In this document: one piece after another, positions 28,398 through 34,121 of the stretch | How positions within the stretch are numbered: the first letter of the stretch is position 1 | Layout of the letters: the number at the start of each line of letters is the position of its first letter | Source of the DNA: Fictibacillus nanhaiensis | GTDB taxonomy: Bacteria; Bacillota; Bacilli; Bacillales; Fictibacillaceae | Length of the DNA stretch: 64,000 nt | Assembly: GCA_016401345.1 (NCBI GenBank) | Contig: JAEACG010000002.1 | Span: 248,001 to 312,000 of the forward strand | Reading direction: 5' to 3' | Notes under the pieces: model-generated | What the model was told of the DNA's origin: nothing | The model's input: only the letters and a program-made list of their open reading frames with translations | The model's database searches: none | Position numbers and translations under genes: made by a program

Positions 28398-29039
28398 ATG
28401 GTGGCTTACTCATTTGTATTACTGGCACTAGCCGTCAGCCTGGACAGTTTTGGAGCCGGATTAACGTATGGAATGAAATCCATTAAAATTCCTTTTCGCT
28501 CCATTATGATCATCGCAATTTGTTCAGCTGTTACCTTTTTACTTTCGATGTTGCTTGGATTTACGTTAGAACAATTTATTTCACCTAAAACAGGTGAGAT
28601 ATTGGGAGGCGTGATTCTTCTCGGAATCGGAATCTACTCTCTATGGCAGGTTTTCTTACCAGAGAAAGAGAACGTTGAGTGCATGGAAAAAGAACCTAAG
28701 AACATTGTGCTTTTTGAAATTAAGTCGTTGGGAATCGTCATACACATACTTAAGAAACCAGTTATGGCAGATATCGATAAGTCTGGTTCAATTACGGGCT
28801 TAGAAGCTGTACTGCTTGGAATAGCATTATCGCTTGATGCCTTTGGAGCGGGAATAGGTGCAGCACTCATCGACTTGTCTCCTTCATTAACAACCATTAC
28901 AATTGCGGTGATGAGCGCTTTATTCTTATGGGGTGGTATGGTTTTAGGGTTATATCTTTTTAACAAAACAAACTGGATGAAGGGATTATCCATTCTGCCA
29001 GGCGTTTTATTGATCGTAATGGGATTATTAAAAATGTAA
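28398..29039 (+). CDS. ytaF: sporulation membrane protein YtaF
   Basis: A 213-residue membrane protein of the MntP/YtaF superfamily with two related halves, each starting ALAVSLDSFGAGL (near 8) and GIALSLDAFGAGIG (near 142), as in small cation exporters. About six membrane segments. A short insertion between the halves carries DIDKSGSITGLE, an EF-hand-like sequence. YtaF is annotated as sporulation-linked in Bacillus. Its ribosome binding site lies in a strong hairpin, so translation probably depends on where transcription starts. Confidence 0.85.
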   Translation: MVAYSFVLLALAVSLDSFGAGLTYGMKSIKIPFRSIMIIAICSAVTFLLSMLLGFTLEQFISPKTGEILGGVILLGIGIYSLWQVFLPEKENVECMEKEPKNIVLFEIKSLGIVIHILKKPVMADIDKSGSITGLEAVLLGIALSLDAFGAGIGAALIDLSPSLTTITIAVMSALFLWGGMVLGLYLFNKTNWMKGLSILPGVLLIVMGLLKM

Positions 29040-29055
29040 CACTGGAGGATAACTT

Positions 29056-29652
29056 GTGATTATTGGATTAACTGGAGGCATTGCAACGGGAAAATCAACA
29101 GTCAGTAACATCATCAGAGGTCAAGGAATTCCTGTAGTCGATGCTGATATCATTTCTAGAGAAGTTGTTATGCCAGAGAAAGAAGCATATGAGAAGATCG
29201 TGGCCTGCTTTGGTGAACAGATACTAAATGATGACAAGACAATAAACAGAGCAGGATTAGGAGAGATTATTTTTAACGATACTGAAAAGAGGACGATGCT
29301 GAACGAGATTGTTCACCCTGCTGTAAGAAAGGAAATGAGACAGCAAGCAGATGATTATCTACGTTCAGGAGAGTCTATAGTGGTTATGGATATACCACTT
29401 TTATTTGAGAGTAAGCTTACACATATGGTAGATCGAACGTGGTTAGTATATGCAACGCCCGAAATACAACTTCAAAGATTGATAAATCGTGATCATTTTT
29501 CAGAGAAGCAAGCGAAGTCTAGAATCCATTCCCAGATGCCGATCACAGAAAAAAAGGAATTAGCAGATGTAGTAATCAACAATAATGGATCTCTTTCTGC
29601 TTTAGAAAATGATGTTCTTTCCTTGCTAAAACAAACAAAAAAACAGACCTGA
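29056..29652 (+). CDS. coaE: dephospho-CoA kinase
   Basis: Last step of coenzyme A synthesis, phosphorylating the 3'-hydroxyl of dephospho-CoA. The 198-residue protein starts with the P-loop GLTGGIATGKSTVS (4-17) and contains DADIISREVV near 29 and DIPLLFESKL near 114-123. The start is GTG at 29056, supported by CTGGAGGATAACTT. It closes the polA-mutM-ytaF-coaE cluster. Confidence 0.95.
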   Translation: MIIGLTGGIATGKSTVSNIIRGQGIPVVDADIISREVVMPEKEAYEKIVACFGEQILNDDKTINRAGLGEIIFNDTEKRTMLNEIVHPAVRKEMRQQADDYLRSGESIVVMDIPLLFESKLTHMVDRTWLVYATPEIQLQRLINRDHFSEKQAKSRIHSQMPITEKKELADVVINNNGSLSALENDVLSLLKQTKKQT

Positions 29653-29675
29653 TAACCATTTCAGGTCTGTTTTTA
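29641..29675 (+). terminator. coaE terminator
   Basis: ACAGACCTGA / TCAGGTCTGT stem, loop 8 nt, five T. The 5' arm overlaps the coaE stop codon. Confidence 0.9.
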
Positions 29676-29734
29676 TCTATATAAGCCCTTTTTCAGCCTA
29701 AATTAAATAAAAGTATGTTCTTTTCAAGTGTTAA

Positions 29735-29745
29735 TATGATATACT
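29735..29745. promoter_or_regulatory. CcpN-type operator over the gapB -10 region
   Basis: TATGATATACT matches the CcpN consensus TRTGHYATAYW at every position, and its last six bases (TATACT) would be the gapB -10 box. CcpN represses gapB and pckA under glycolytic conditions in B. subtilis. The -35 (near 29718) is poorly conserved. Confidence 0.65.
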
Positions 29746-29796
29746 AATTACAGATAGATACAAGAAAGAGTATAACACATTGGAAGGAGCAGCTTC

Positions 29797-30837
29797 ATGA
29801 AAGCAAAAATTGCAATTAATGGCTTGGGGAGAATCGGAAGAATGGTCTTCCGCAAAATGATGGAGAACGATGAATTTGAGGTTGTAGCTGTTAATGCCAG
29901 CTATCCTGCAGAGACTCTTGCTCATATGGTTAAGTACGATTCTATACATGGGACGTACCCGGGAGAAGTTGTTGCTGGAGAAGATGCCCTTTTTGTTGAT
30001 GGAAAAAAAGTTCAATTAGTTAACTCTCGCGATCCTCGTGAACTTCCTTGGGGAACGTTAGGCGTTGATATTGTTATAGAAGCAACTGGGAAATTTGTTT
30101 CACAAGAATCTGCTGGTCTTCATATTGAAGCAGGTGCAAAGAAAGTAATTATCACTGCTCCAGGGAAAGATGAAGACATTACAATTGTTATGGGAGTAAA
30201 TGATAGCGATTACATTTCTTCGAAACACCATATTATATCTAATGCATCGTGCACGACGAACTGTTTAGCCCCTGTGATTAAAGTGCTTGATGATCAGTTC
30301 GGGGTACAGTCCGGAATGATGACGACTGTACATGCGTATACGAATGACCAGAAAAATATTGATAACCCACATAAAGACTTAAGACGTGCACGTGCATGTG
30401 GCACTTCTATTATTCCAACTTCTACAGGTGCTGCAAAAGCTATTGCAAAAGTCTTGCCTCACTTAGAAGGCAAACTGAATGGTATGGCACTACGCGTTCC
30501 AACACCTAACGTTTCATTGGTTGACGTTGTTGTGGAGTTAAAGACTCCTGTATCTAAAGACCAAGTCAATCATGCTCTACAATCGGCATCTGAAGGATCA
30601 ATGCGTGGAATCTTAGGGTACAGCGATCTGCCGCTAGTATCGATTGATTATAATGGAAATGAAAACTCTTCAATCATTGACGGCTTATCAACTATGGTGA
30701 TGGACGGTAATAAAGTAAAGGTCCTTGCTTGGTATGACAATGAATGGGGTTATTCATGCCGAGTAGTAGATCTTGCGAAACATGTAAGTGTTGCTTTGAA
30801 TATGCCGGTACAAGAAAAAAATGTGTCAGTATCATAA
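29797..30837 (+). CDS. gapB: glyceraldehyde-3-phosphate dehydrogenase, gluconeogenic NADP type
   Basis: A 346-residue GAPDH with catalytic Cys152 in SNASCTTNCLAP and the dinucleotide motif INGLGRIGRMVF (7-18). Where NAD-specific glycolytic enzymes have Asp after the second beta strand, this protein has Ala34 (VNAS), as in GapB, which works with NADP in the gluconeogenic direction. The C-terminus is a few residues longer than in B. subtilis. A strong GGAAGGAG site precedes the ATG. CcpN-like operator and terminator make it a single-gene unit. Confidence 0.93.
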   Translation: MKAKIAINGLGRIGRMVFRKMMENDEFEVVAVNASYPAETLAHMVKYDSIHGTYPGEVVAGEDALFVDGKKVQLVNSRDPRELPWGTLGVDIVIEATGKFVSQESAGLHIEAGAKKVIITAPGKDEDITIVMGVNDSDYISSKHHIISNASCTTNCLAPVIKVLDDQFGVQSGMMTTVHAYTNDQKNIDNPHKDLRRARACGTSIIPTSTGAAKAIAKVLPHLEGKLNGMALRVPTPNVSLVDVVVELKTPVSKDQVNHALQSASEGSMRGILGYSDLPLVSIDYNGNENSSIIDGLSTMVMDGNKVKVLAWYDNEWGYSCRVVDLAKHVSVALNMPVQEKNVSVS

Positions 30838-30867
30838 AAACAGTCAGTTAAAATAAATAAATGAGTG

Positions 30868-30895
30868 AGAGCTGGATATCACACCAGCTCTTTTC
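30868..30895 (+). terminator. gapB terminator
   Basis: AGAGCTGG / CCAGCTCT perfect stem with an 8-nt loop and T-run. Confidence 0.9.
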
Positions 30896-30982
30896 TACTT
30901 TTAAACGAACTAGTATGTTTCAATTGATCCTTATCCTTAAAAAACAATATAAAATTGACTTAAAAAAATTTGCCCATAGTTA

Positions 30983-31011
30983 TTGCAAATAAATTTTAAA
31001 AGAAGTATACT
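30983..31011 (+). promoter_or_regulatory. SigA promoter of speD
   Basis: TTGCAA (30983-30988), 17-bp spacer, TATACT (31006-31011). It leaves a leader of about 140 nt before speD. Confidence 0.8.
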
Positions 31012-31017
31012 ATGATT

Positions 31018-31158
31018 CGTGAACTTCAAATAAAGCAAACAAAGGCATTGAATGCTACTTAAAGGGTTAGGACCTCTTTGGACTAACTTGCCCCCGTGGT
31101 AGATATTCGATACCGCATGCTTGAAGGCATGATTATTTTTAAAAGGGGGACTATGCTA
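31018..31158 (+). promoter_or_regulatory. structured speD leader with possible anti-RBS
   Basis: Possible stems: GTTAG (31066-31070) / CTAAC (31083-31087); GTGGTA (31096-31101) / TACCGC (31111-31116) with one wobble; CATGC (31116-31120) / GCATG (31127-31131) followed by ATTATTTTT, a weak terminator shape. CCCCC at 31091-31095 is complementary to GGGGG at 31145-31149 in the speD ribosome binding site. A 16-codon ORF runs through the first part. The region looks like a translational or transcriptional attenuator; ligand or signal unknown. Confidence 0.5.
31052..31102 (+). CDS. candidate speD leader peptide, 16 aa
   Basis: ATG at 31052 has AAAGG (31041-31045) 6 nt upstream. Translation is [16 protein letters not shown] followed by TAG. 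The last codons CCC-CCG-TGG-TAG place Pro-Pro just before the final residue and stop, a context that stalls ribosomes, and the same bases form the CCCCC that can pair with the speD ribosome binding site. Too short to be certain of; judged by its ribosome binding site, position in the leader and overlap with the predicted stems. Confidence 0.5.
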
Positions 31159-31542
31159 ATGGATACAATGGGAAGACACGTAATTGCTGAGTTATGGGGT
31201 TGTGATTCTGAAAAACTAAATGACATGAAATTTATTGAAGAGACATTCGTTGACGCTGCATTGAAATCAGGTGCAGAAATTCGTGAGGTTGCTTTTCATA
31301 AATTTGCTCCACATGGTGTAAGTGGAGTTGTTATTATTTCTGAATCTCATCTAACTATTCACAGTTTTCCTGAGCATGGTTATGCAAGTATTGATGTATA
31401 TACGTGTGGAGATCGAATCGATCCTAACGTAGCTGCTGATTACATTTCGGAGGCACTTGGCGCTAAAAAGCGCGAAAACTTGGAAGTTCCTCGTGGAATG
31501 GGTCCAATTTCTGTTGCCAAATCAAAAGTTACTGCTCAATAA
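31159..31542 (+). CDS. speD: S-adenosylmethionine decarboxylase proenzyme
   Basis: Makes decarboxylated S-adenosylmethionine, the aminopropyl donor for spermidine. The 127-residue prokaryotic class 1B form is self-cleaved between Glu62 and Ser63 in [13 protein letters not shown], Ser63 becoming the pyruvoyl group; His68 and Cys83 of VYTCGD are the other expected catalytic residues. The ATG at 31159 lies 9 nt after the GGGGG; an ATG two codons upstream is too close to that site. It follows gapB as in B. subtilis but has its own promoter and leader. Confidence 0.95.
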
Positions 31543-31562
31543 TTTAAAAACAGAATGTACGT

Positions 31563-31590
31563 GAGGTGTGAGAAATCACACCTCTTTTTT
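31563..31590 (+). terminator. speD terminator
   Basis: GAGGTGTGA / TCACACCTC, perfect 9-bp stem capped by a GAAA tetraloop, six T. Confidence 0.95.
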
Positions 31591-31647
31591 ATTTCACTCA
31601 TTATAGGGAATAATAGGATACAAATTATATTGCTTTGGAGGACTACT

Positions 31648-32043
31648 ATGTTTAGAAAACTTCAAAATCTAATGGAAAATCATGCAGAAACGAGTGAACA
31701 GCATGTGGACGAAAGACTTAGAACCCATTATTTTAAAGCTAATAAACCTGAAGTAATGAAAGTGATCAAACAGATTTTAGATGAAGACATGAATTTCCAT
31801 GAGCTAGGTTTTTCAGAAGAAAGGGGAGAGGTAACGTTTGAAGTTAGACAGCCTAAGAGTGCGTTTGTCGTTATTAGTGTAGTAACAGTTAAAGCGAATC
31901 GAACTGCTGTAGATTTAAACGTATCAACAGAATCTGCTCTTCCTTTCAATTTTGGCAACAATCAAAGACTTATTGTAAATATTTATGAAATCTTAAAAGA
32001 AAAACTAACGTTTGTTGGGACGTCAATGGCTGAAAAATTGTAG
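31648..32043 (+). CDS. conserved hypothetical cytosolic protein, 131 aa
   Basis: Unrecognised soluble protein starting MFRKLQNLMENHAETSEQH. Predicted alpha/beta make-up with a short N-terminal helix, then alternating strands (EVTFEVRQPKSAFVVISVVTV) and a C-terminal helix. The ATG at 31648 follows TTGGAGGA; the 31 codons upstream in frame overlap the speD terminator and are not coding. It stands between speD and nrdR. No catalytic motif seen. Confidence 0.75.
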   Translation: MFRKLQNLMENHAETSEQHVDERLRTHYFKANKPEVMKVIKQILDEDMNFHELGFSEERGEVTFEVRQPKSAFVVISVVTVKANRTAVDLNVSTESALPFNFGNNQRLIVNIYEILKEKLTFVGTSMAEKL

Positions 32044-32115
32044 GAATAGCTTGTCACATTCCTCCCTTTTCTTTAAGATAGATAGAGAATAGAAAATTTT
32101 TTGGGGATGATTACA

Positions 32116-32577
32116 ATGAGGTGTCCTACTTGCCAGCACAACGGAACAAAAGTGCTTGATTCAAGACCTGTACATAGCGGAAGATCCATTCGCCGCAGAA
32201 GGGAATGTGAATCTTGCAGCTATAGATTTACTACATTTGAAACGGTAGAACAAACACCGCTTATCATTGTTAAAAAAGGCGGGGAACGAGAAGAGTTCAG
32301 CCGTGAAAAGATCCTTAGAGGGCTTATTAAAGCTTGCGAAAAAAGGCCAGTCCCCTTGGAAACACTTGAAAATATAGTAGATAGTATCGAAAAAGATTTG
32401 CGGAACTCAGGTGCATCTGAAGTTTCGAGTACAGCTGTTGGTGAACAGGTGATGGAGCATCTGTCTAAAACAGATGAGGTTGCATATGTAAGATTTGCCT
32501 CTGTATACCGTCAATTTAAAGATATTAATGTTTTTATACAGGAATTGAAAGAACTAATTAACAAGGAGGAGCGTTAA
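32116..32577 (+). CDS. nrdR: transcriptional repressor NrdR
   Basis: A 153-residue repressor of ribonucleotide reductase genes that reads the ATP/dATP balance. The N-terminal zinc ribbon has Cys3, Cys6, Cys31 and Cys34 (MRCPTC...CESC), and an ATP-cone domain follows (about 48-138, [15 protein letters not shown]). The ATG at 32116 has GGGGAT at good spacing and gives the conserved MRCPxC N-terminus; the longer TTG frame does not. No NrdR box was recognised near genes in this window. Confidence 0.95.
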
Positions 32578-32610
32578 AGCGTATCTTAGACTGCTGTAAC
32601 GCTCTTTTTA
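32569..32610 (+). terminator. nrdR terminator overlapping the stop codon
   Basis: GAGCGTTA (32569-32576) / TAACGCTC (32597-32604) plus five T; the 5' arm covers the last codons and stop of nrdR. Confidence 0.85.
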
Positions 32611-32667
32611 TTCCAATCTAACTCCGTATTCTGCTTTTCAGAATAAATTATATGTACAAAGTACTCT

Positions 32668-32694
32668 GGCTGACGATACTAAAATCCGTCGGCC
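32668..32694 (+). other. hairpin upstream of dnaB
   Basis: GGCTGACG (32668-32675) / CGTCGGCC (32687-32694), eight pairs with one wobble and an 11-nt loop, no T-run. About 38 nt before dnaB. Role unknown. Confidence 0.45.
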
Positions 32695-32732
32695 ACATTA
32701 CTGTTAAGACTTTTTAACAAAGGGTGAAAACG

Positions 32733-34121
32733 ATGACGGTACATTTTCAAGAAGTTGTGCCCGTTGATACGTATTCCGTCCAGTGCAAGGGTATGTTGCA
32801 TGAAATAGATCATAAAGTTCTTACCATGCTATATCAGCCGTTGGTTGGCGCATTTGCACATAGTTTATACATGACATTGTGGTGCGAAGTAAATATGGAT
32901 CGGCAGACACAAAAACATCAGCACCTCATGAACGTGACTCAGTTCTCGTTAAAAGATATATTATCGGGAAGAAAGAAGCTAGAAGCGATCGGTCTTTTGA
33001 AGACGTTTAAAAAAGATGGTGATAGCTCTAGGGAGTACATTTATGAGCTTCAACTCCCGCTTTCGCCGAACGCTTTTTTTACAGATGGCTTTTTAAGTAT
33101 ATATCTCTTTAATCGATTGGGAAAAGCGAAGTTTAATGAAGTTAGAGAATCTTTTTATATCTCTCAAATGGATGTGTCAGATTATAGAGATGTGACCGCT
33201 TCTTTCAGTGACGTGTTTACTTCTTTGCATCCATCTGAAATGTCATCAAAGAGTTATGCTGAGATTAACGAAAATGTTCTTCCAAAAGATGTCTCTTTAC
33301 AGGAAAAAGACATTCATGGGAAAGTTGTACTAAGTGAATCTACCTTTGATTTTGAAGCGATGGTGAATCAGATCTCATCATTTATCGTACCTAAAGAAGT
33401 GCTCACTCCAAAATTAAAGGAAGCCATCTATAAGCTGGCATACATCTATCAGTTACAGCCGATGGATATGAGTAAACAGATTCAAAACGTATATTATTCC
33501 ACAGGAGAAATTTCTGCAGAGAGCTTAAGGAAAGAAATTCAAAAATGGTATCGATTTGAACATGAAGAAGGTCTACCAGTTCTAGCATTAAAAACGCAGC
33601 CGGTTCCATTAAAGGCACTTCATGGCATGCAACCTCAAACAAAAGAAGAAGAACTTATCAAATACTTTGAAGAAGTGTCACCTTATCGTTTGTTAGAAGA
33701 TTATTCAGGTACAACTCCTTCAGAAGTAGATTTGAAGCTTGTTGCTTACTGTATGATCGATCAGAATTTAACACCAGGGGTTACGAATGTTCTTTTAGAT
33801 TATGTTTTATCTGAGAATGATATGAAGCTTGCAAAAGGATTGATCGAACGGATCGCTTCACATTGGGCTCGAAAAAAAGCACAAACGGTAACAGAAGCAA
33901 TGGCGTTAGCACGCGATGAAAAACGAAAATATAAAGAATGGCAAGAAAAGAAAGTAAATTCAGGTTCTTACAATAAGGGTAATAAAAAGAGTAACGTAAC
34001 TGTTCCTGACTGGCTTAAACAGGATAAAGTGGCCACTAGTCAGACAGATCATTCAAACACTGATGCTACAGAGGACGAGAATCGTAAGTGGCTTGAAAGC
34101 TTGTTAAATAGTTCGAAATAA
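32733..34121 (+). CDS. dnaB: replication initiation and membrane attachment protein DnaB
   Basis: Helicase-loading protein of Firmicutes (not the E. coli helicase of the same name), 462 residues. With DnaD and DnaI it places the DnaC helicase at oriC and at PriA restart sites. The N-terminal winged-helix DDBH1 region (about 1-110) and the C-terminal DDBH2 domain (about 310-390) are recognisable, followed by a charged tail ending WLKQ...RKWLESLL. The ATG at 32733 follows AAAGGGTGAAAACG. It is coupled to dnaI, 11 nt downstream. Confidence 0.93.
   Translation: MTVHFQEVVPVDTYSVQCKGMLHEIDHKVLTMLYQPLVGAFAHSLYMTLWCEVNMDRQTQKHQHLMNVTQFSLKDILSGRKKLEAIGLLKTFKKDGDSSREYIYELQLPLSPNAFFTDGFLSIYLFNRLGKAKFNEVRESFYISQMDVSDYRDVTASFSDVFTSLHPSEMSSKSYAEINENVLPKDVSLQEKDIHGKVVLSESTFDFEAMVNQISSFIVPKEVLTPKLKEAIYKLAYIYQLQPMDMSKQIQNVYYSTGEISAESLRKEIQKWYRFEHEEGLPVLALKTQPVPLKALHGMQPQTKEEELIKYFEEVSPYRLLEDYSGTTPSEVDLKLVAYCMIDQNLTPGVTNVLLDYVLSENDMKLAKGLIERIASHWARKKAQTVTEAMALARDEKRKYKEWQEKKVNSGSYNKGNKKSNVTVPDWLKQDKVATSQTDHSNTDATEDENRKWLESLLNSSK

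Follow-up and report, generated by a model that had tools for sequence, protein, structure and literature searches.

The leader that precedes the S-adenosylmethionine decarboxylase gene, speD, of Fictibacillus nanhaiensis is, in our judgement, likely to be a structured cis-regulatory RNA, a candidate translational riboswitch of an undescribed class that probably serves polyamine feedback. Its matches are spread widely through the class; of the 100 that were examined, 99 lie before the spermidine gene speD, and Rfam 15 returned no match to it. If it is a riboswitch, it would directly answer the question of how spermidine is controlled in bacilli.

The speD locus

The window analysed here is a stretch of 64,000 nucleotides of the F. 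nanhaiensis genome; all features described below lie on its forward (+) strand. The speD gene (31159-31542), identified through SpeD matches in the genus, follows a GAPDH gene (29797-30837), and speD is annotated in the same neighbourhood on an Anoxybacillus replicon. SpeD translation most likely starts at the ATG at 31159, 9 nt past a GGGGG Shine-Dalgarno sequence (31145-31149); a second in-frame ATG is found at 31153. Few long ORFs of the window use GGGGG in this role: by an approximate count, 2 of 55 have it as their best Shine-Dalgarno match. Upstream of its start, the speD frame stays open as far as a GTG at 31096, within the leader (31096-31542), and automatic gene callers may therefore misplace the speD start.

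A putative promoter, TTGCAA / TATACT (30983-31011), matches the consensus at 9 of 12 positions, in a scan that found 4 sites vs 3.1 expected by chance. TATACT..TTCGTGAACTTC is repeated across many of the named upstream regions, and TATACTA..TTCGTGAACTTC is kept around the putative transcription start (31006-31029 in the window, and at many named loci). This stretch would belong in part to helix P0, described below, and could alternatively be an operator.

A near-invariant core in the leader

SpeD is present in all 18 genomes of the genus, within which the leader is 94-100% identical overall, and a leader query matched 34 of 34 family genomes at 86-100% identity. For a wider comparison, the best 80 of 576 candidates that encoded relatives were taken as named loci. 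In 79 of these best 80, speD is preceded by the core GGGTTAGG..ACTAACTT[G/T]CCCC, and in all 79 a G-run Shine-Dalgarno sequence lies 7-12 nt from the start codon. The window counterpart of the core, module B, is UUAAAGGGUUAGGACCUCUUUGGACUAACUUGCCCCCGUG (31059-31098), as delineated by the alignments and by models R1 and R2. Across the same 79 loci the mean identity of the 38-nt core is 97%, while that of the first 115 speD codons is 73%, that of their third positions 49% and that of the 50 nt upstream, compared without gaps, 39%.

The sole exception among the best 80 named loci is found in Alkalihalobacterium chitinilyticum (L053), where the 3' half of the leader is retained together with GGGGG and the 5' half has decayed or given way to other sequence; either the switch was lost naturally here or the assembly is at fault. 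In another locus (L196, genome G434) an insert of about 50 nt sits in the loop of helix P2 and the rest of the core is intact; the P2 loop is thus tolerant.

Helices and covariation

The core is enclosed by helix P1, paired by hand, whose 5' strand GGCAUUGAAUGCUAC (31044-31058) pairs with 31099-31114; the 3' strand GUAGAUAUUCGAUACC (31099-31114) is supported by hand pairing and covariation. Within the core, folding and covariation define the P2 hairpin (31066-31087), in which GUUAG (31066-31070) pairs with CUAAC (31083-31087) and an inner CC (31073-31074) with GG (31080-31081); in L241, L269 and L270, judged by eye, P2 is replaced by GUUGGG/CCCGAC. Downstream, a terminator-like pattern marks the P3 hairpin CAUGCUUGAAGGCAUG, followed by AUUAUUUUU (31116-31131), and a P3-like hairpin was also seen by eye in the distant lineages L218, L223, L227 and L233. 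The 3' side of P3 is common to P0, a long-range helix in which the putative 5' end of the leader, CGUGAACUUCAA (31018-31029), pairs with the region before the Shine-Dalgarno sequence (31121-31131). P0 was examined by a duplex permutation test in the 74 of 79 named loci that were usable, 52 of them distinct: native duplexes average -10.6 vs -9.0 kcal/mol for mismatched ones, a difference reached in 0 of 2000 permutations for the 52 distinct loci, and in a diverse 15-locus subset the values are -9.0 vs -7.8, with 33 of 2000 permutations.

Covariation was evaluated in several alignments; of a further one, A1, which mixed strands, the + strand rows alone were used. In A2, a MAFFT alignment of 59 close sequences, two-sided changes occur in 4 of 6 pairs of P1 and in none of P2, and covariation is 0.130 vs 0.090 (0/500 shuffles); for two of the five measures, the pair and pair-type counts, 42 and 62 of 500 shuffles reach the observed values. 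A4 comprises 38 class-level sequences, selected by eye from 100 and aligned with MAFFT without fitting to a structure; of 19 pairs in P1a, P1b and P2, 12 show two-sided changes, covariation is 0.219 vs 0.116 in shuffled alignments (0/500), and every slide of the pairing scores lower. Among the sequences selected by eye for A4 and A5, MAFFT shifted P1a in a few rows, for example L192, L194, L204 and L217. Two-sided changes affect 10 of 13 pairs in A3, with covariation of 0.368 vs 0.154 (0/500), in an alignment that leans to the model because it was fitted to it (100 matches, 98 distinct). Two-sided changes in the inner part of P1 are common to A2, A4 and A3. Together with the identity of the core, A4 and A3 establish a conserved, covarying structure in the 5' leader, as is looked for in a riboswitch, and the RNA covariance search that a preliminary description of this DNA had suggested yielded a structured family with compensatory changes in P1 and P2.

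Folding energy was dropped as evidence because it proved ordinary and so uninformative: the leader has z-scores of -1.23 and -1.57, with 19 and 12 of 200 shuffles at least as stable, and four leaders span -1.57 to +0.59.

The short reading frame in the leader

The preliminary description had assigned to this leader a short ORF of 16 residues (31052-31102) whose Pro-Pro-Trp-stop end would stall ribosomes and thereby decide whether the speD Shine-Dalgarno sequence is free. The letters on which this proposal was built are all present, namely the ORF with its stop TAG (31100-31102), a CCCCC (31091-31095) and the speD GGGGG (31145-31149), and the terminal codons and stop do form a helix arm, in the region of the P1 3' strand, which contains most of the stop. 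A ribosome binding site is likewise present, 6 nt from the ATG, but consists of AAAGG (31041-31045), a weak Shine-Dalgarno sequence.

Conservation of the ORF and a codon test lead us to judge it coincidental. In the genus, the ATG is found in 17 of 18 genomes (L018 has ATA) and Pro-Pro-Trp-stop in 17 of 18 (L003 reads TGG in place of the stop), leaving the ORF intact in 16; at 94-100% identity of the whole leader, this retention says little. The suggested alignment of upstream regions bore out the conservation of CCCCC and GGGGG, and that of the ORF within the genus; beyond the genus the ORF is lost. Among the 12 of 16 other family genomes that yielded loci, the start codon is lost in 11, which read ATT, ATA or GTT, and the one with ATG has no stop; it is also lost in 72 of the 79 named loci (of the best 80), the seven with ATG being 7 of the 14 Fictibacillus loci (L021-L034). 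A start codon with an open frame kept beyond the genus was thus not found among these 12 family and 79 named loci.

A broader set of 164 distinct loci, obtained after 72 duplicates had been dropped, gave a similar picture: 64 have an in-frame stop at the position equivalent to the ATG, and 57 have any upstream in-frame ATG, GTG or TTG, in some merely a TTG inside the core. The letters of Pro-Pro-Trp-stop are found in 130 of the 164, many with an in-frame stop just upstream; being kept without a frame, they are conserved as RNA. In the codon test (79 loci, 38 positions, 13 of them variable), third positions account for 52 of the 69 differences, a lean that alone could look coding but that stems mostly from one position in the P2 loop, where 40 of the 52 lie; without it, 12 differences are at third and 17 at other positions. 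Judged by these sequence comparisons, the ORF is most likely a coincidence of RNA letters, and the speD leader offers an example of a conserved RNA that imitates a leader peptide under codon-by-codon reading.

Distribution and gene association

Searches with the covariance model R1, for which E-values are rough and filters were strict, matched, in the order, 323 of 397 genomes from 108 of 135 genera and, in the class, 191 of 398 genomes from 87 of 145 genera, with one copy per matching genome in both; about half of the sampled class genomes are thus without an R1 match. At the level of the phylum, R1 matched 10 of 398 genomes, again once in each, and R2, which was built with module A and the Shine-Dalgarno region, 14 of 398. 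Five R2 matches lie outside the class, all of them before speD (L264 and L267-L270), two of these being weak (E 0.006 and 0.009).

The RNA is associated with a polyamine synthesis gene: when 100 R1 matches, a selection with weak ones among them, were aligned, 99 had SpeD encoded on the same strand downstream, 32-74 nt past the end of the model. The remaining match (L242, genome G1103) is weak (E 0.0045) and was treated as chance. Among 35 sampled genomes without an R1 match, 22 have no SpeD match at 1e-6, five have a close SpeD but no recognisable core (L243-L247) and eight have a distant SpeD; seven of these eight (L248-L254) carry a related leader, as judged by eye.

Two genomes of the genus, G001 and G003, contain a second SpeD-like gene (L019 and L020, 39% and 36% identity), and the single R1 match of G003 lies at the other speD. 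A phage origin was rejected, as no phage match was obtained and two patterns had no exact match in viral contigs. A plasmid origin was rejected as well: the one plasmid record found, the 258-kb plasmid pDSM15939_1 of Anoxybacillus amylolyticus (L256), carries a gap-speD-nrdR stretch, and its mutM-coaE-gap-speD-nrdR set has the appearance of chromosomal genes transferred to a second replicon.

Predicted Shine-Dalgarno pairing and a proposed switch

The CCCCC at 31091-31095, the putative anti-Shine-Dalgarno sequence, lies within the core, and each of its five columns is C in 94-100 of the 100 aligned matches. It is complementary to the speD GGGGG, as had been pointed out in the preliminary description, and the minimum free energy fold of the leader pairs the two; since none of the 79 core-bearing loci among the best 80 has lost either, the complementarity goes beyond chance. 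In alignment A5, whose loci were likewise picked by eye, the pairing shows no two-sided change and no covariation support, because the pair hardly varies, and RNAalifold on A5 returned CCCC/GGGG alone, without P1 or P2.

An alternative pairing, P2', was returned by RNAalifold on A4. It is mutually exclusive with P2 and places a GGG (31064-31066), the proposed anti-anti-Shine-Dalgarno sequence, on CCC of the anti-Shine-Dalgarno sequence, together with one variable pair that is A-U, G-C or G-U in 73, 16 and 7 of 98 distinct rows and never A-C. One pair of P2' shows a two-sided change; support is moderate, because a control slid by +2 scores about equally (0.136 vs 0.129).

A switch can be modelled on the conservation of the leader, the covariation of P1 and P2, the association with speD and the invariant partners of the Shine-Dalgarno sequence, from which we infer the P2/P2' exchange, the direction of control and the ligand. 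P1, with the outer P0 in Bacillaceae-type loci, would enclose the near-invariant core with P2. When P2 is formed, CCCCC would be available to the GGGGG Shine-Dalgarno sequence, and pairing of the two would keep speD off; when GGG pairs with CCC in P2', the Shine-Dalgarno sequence would be free, and speD on. A metabolite of the pathway may bind the core and favour P2 and CCCCC/GGGGG, turning speD off in a feedback loop. If GGG (31064-31066), CCCCC (31091-31095) and GGGGG (31145-31149) are exchange partners, this would explain why all three vary so little. A link to one gene is not enough to name the ligand: spermidine is the most likely, with somewhat less than an even chance, and SAM, dcSAM or MTA is a more tentative proposal.

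Two modules

The seven related leaders before distant SpeD genes (L248-L254) were inspected by eye. The outer stem AGGAACCAGGATTCACT / AGTGAATGACGTAGGTCCTAGCG is almost unchanged, although much weaker in L250, while the core is turned into a hairpin, often with G-rich and C-rich arms: GGGUGG/CCGCCC in L249, GGGG/CCCC in L251 and L253, and GGGGAGC/GCUCCCC in L250. L252 is without CCCCC; in L254, CUCCUCU occurs together with the Shine-Dalgarno sequence AGGAGAGGGGG. The outer-stem element, module A, and the core, module B, occur in different combinations. Both are found in many class-level loci (for example L188, L195, L218, L220, L224, L227, L233 and L236); B occurs alone in most Bacillaceae-type loci and in L269 and L270; A occurs alone in distant-SpeD loci such as L248, L249, L251-L254, L267 and L268. 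By a rough tally, 129 of 143 distinct loci whose SpeD is at least 75% identical have B without A; this tally used rough regular expressions, is to be read as a trend, and miscounted L269 and L270 as lacking B.

This distribution suggests, from sequence, that A and B are separable sensing modules. Because the outer-stem module persists in distant lineages while the core decays, two nested sensors are possible, with B (UUAAAGGGUUAGGACC..GGACUAACUUUCCCCCGUG) inside P2/P2' and A (GGAACCAGgAUUCAC / GUGAAUGACGUAGGUCC) in the outer stem. Such a switch might respond to two metabolites of the pathway, for example a SAM-derived one and spermidine, through a GGG/CCCCC/GGGGG exchange that would expose or hide the Shine-Dalgarno sequence; we put this forward as a speculative extension, with a low probability. 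In L248, L249 and L251-L254 the speD start codon may be enclosed by a hairpin, CCGAAAG..AUG..CUUUCGG, in which speD codons take part; this is a possible extra layer of control in distant-SpeD lineages.

Alternative explanations

That the leader couples speD translation to a signal, as the preliminary description held, is very probable, but control by the Pro-Pro-Trp-stop peptide is not supported. Two prolines close to a stop codon can slow ribosomes, and in this genus, to which such a mechanism might be confined, the ORF is intact in 16 of 18 genomes and follows a weak Shine-Dalgarno sequence. This retention is uninformative in so uniform a leader, however, and the loss of the ATG in the rest of the family and in the named loci, the in-frame stops at its position in 64 of 164 loci and the placement of the ORF start and stop codons within P1 make control of the anti-Shine-Dalgarno sequence by stalling extremely improbable. 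Transcription attenuation, in which P3 would be an intrinsic terminator governed by the upstream core, could draw on CATGCTTGAAGGCATG and ATTATTTTT, flagged as terminator-like by a scan, and on similar hairpins followed by T-runs seen by eye at several named loci, L046 and L064 among them. The stem comprises merely 5-6 pairs, though, and many lineages are by eye without a T-run or hairpin while the anti-Shine-Dalgarno and Shine-Dalgarno sequences persist, and we regard attenuation as quite unlikely.

A near-invariant core and a conserved hairpin would also fit a protein binding site that controls speD translation, whether for SpeD itself in an autogenous loop, for a ribosomal or other RNA-binding protein, or for Hfq, and a 79-nt Hfq-enriched peak is listed for the speD-gapB region of B. 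subtilis (PMC3574147). The same paper, however, reports known metabolite-, tRNA- and protein-responsive leaders as Hfq-enriched too (PMC3574147). Two modules that can be separated, near-invariant in one lineage or another, would be more like a small-molecule aptamer, as would the extent of invariant letters, paired as well as unpaired, and a protein site is in our view improbable. The translational riboswitch candidate is the reading carried into the comparisons below.

Comparison with known systems

Rfam 15 gave no match to the leader in the window region 29000-33000 or in five relatives at E up to 1, and five further loci had no match at gathering scores; four weak matches in 29000-33000 lie outside the leader, all below gathering scores. 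A known Rfam family was accordingly ruled out for the leader in the window and these ten loci, and a spermidine riboswitch of the SAM-I type was set aside because no Rfam SAM family matched there.

SAM-II and SMK/SAM-III are translational SAM riboswitches that precede methionine and SAM synthesis genes and hold the Shine-Dalgarno sequence within the regulatory fold. The speD RNA resembles them in that its Shine-Dalgarno sequence is predicted to pair within the fold and in that SAM is the substrate of SpeD; unlike them, it precedes speD, and at E up to 1 neither the window leader nor those of the five relatives matched an Rfam family. Polyamine-related upstream ORFs and leader peptides are known from the enterobacterial speF leader and the mammalian AMD1 uORF. 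With these the speD leader has in common that a polyamine enzyme would be controlled from the 5' leader, but it contains no ORF conserved beyond the genus.

No description of the speD RNA was found in the open-access literature searched, although a mention in earlier RNA surveys is possible. Term look-ups found speD unmentioned in PMC11109978, PMC8632094, PMC6429828, PMC7266159 and PMC2864571 and no useful passage on speD expression in PMC5519356; PMC4448311 and PMC9756952 are unrelated to it. The 79-nt Hfq-enriched peak of B. subtilis is labelled 'Unknown or speD leader region' (Dambach et al. 2013, PMC3574147); this table entry, which gives no structure, conservation or function, probably refers to the same leader as the one described here.

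A close parallel is the spermidine riboswitch class reported by Salvail et al. (2023, PMC10853860), described there as four-stem SAM-I variants of narrow distribution that act by transcription termination. Polyamine-sensing riboswitches had long been sought; according to that paper, none had been definitively shown before the SAM-I-variant class, and more are expected. Like the speD RNA, this class is described as cis-regulatory and lies before polyamine genes including speD, and its feedback logic is expected to be similar. In contrast with the class as presented in that report, the speD RNA has other helices and letters, apparently acts on the Shine-Dalgarno sequence, and is found in hundreds of genomes.
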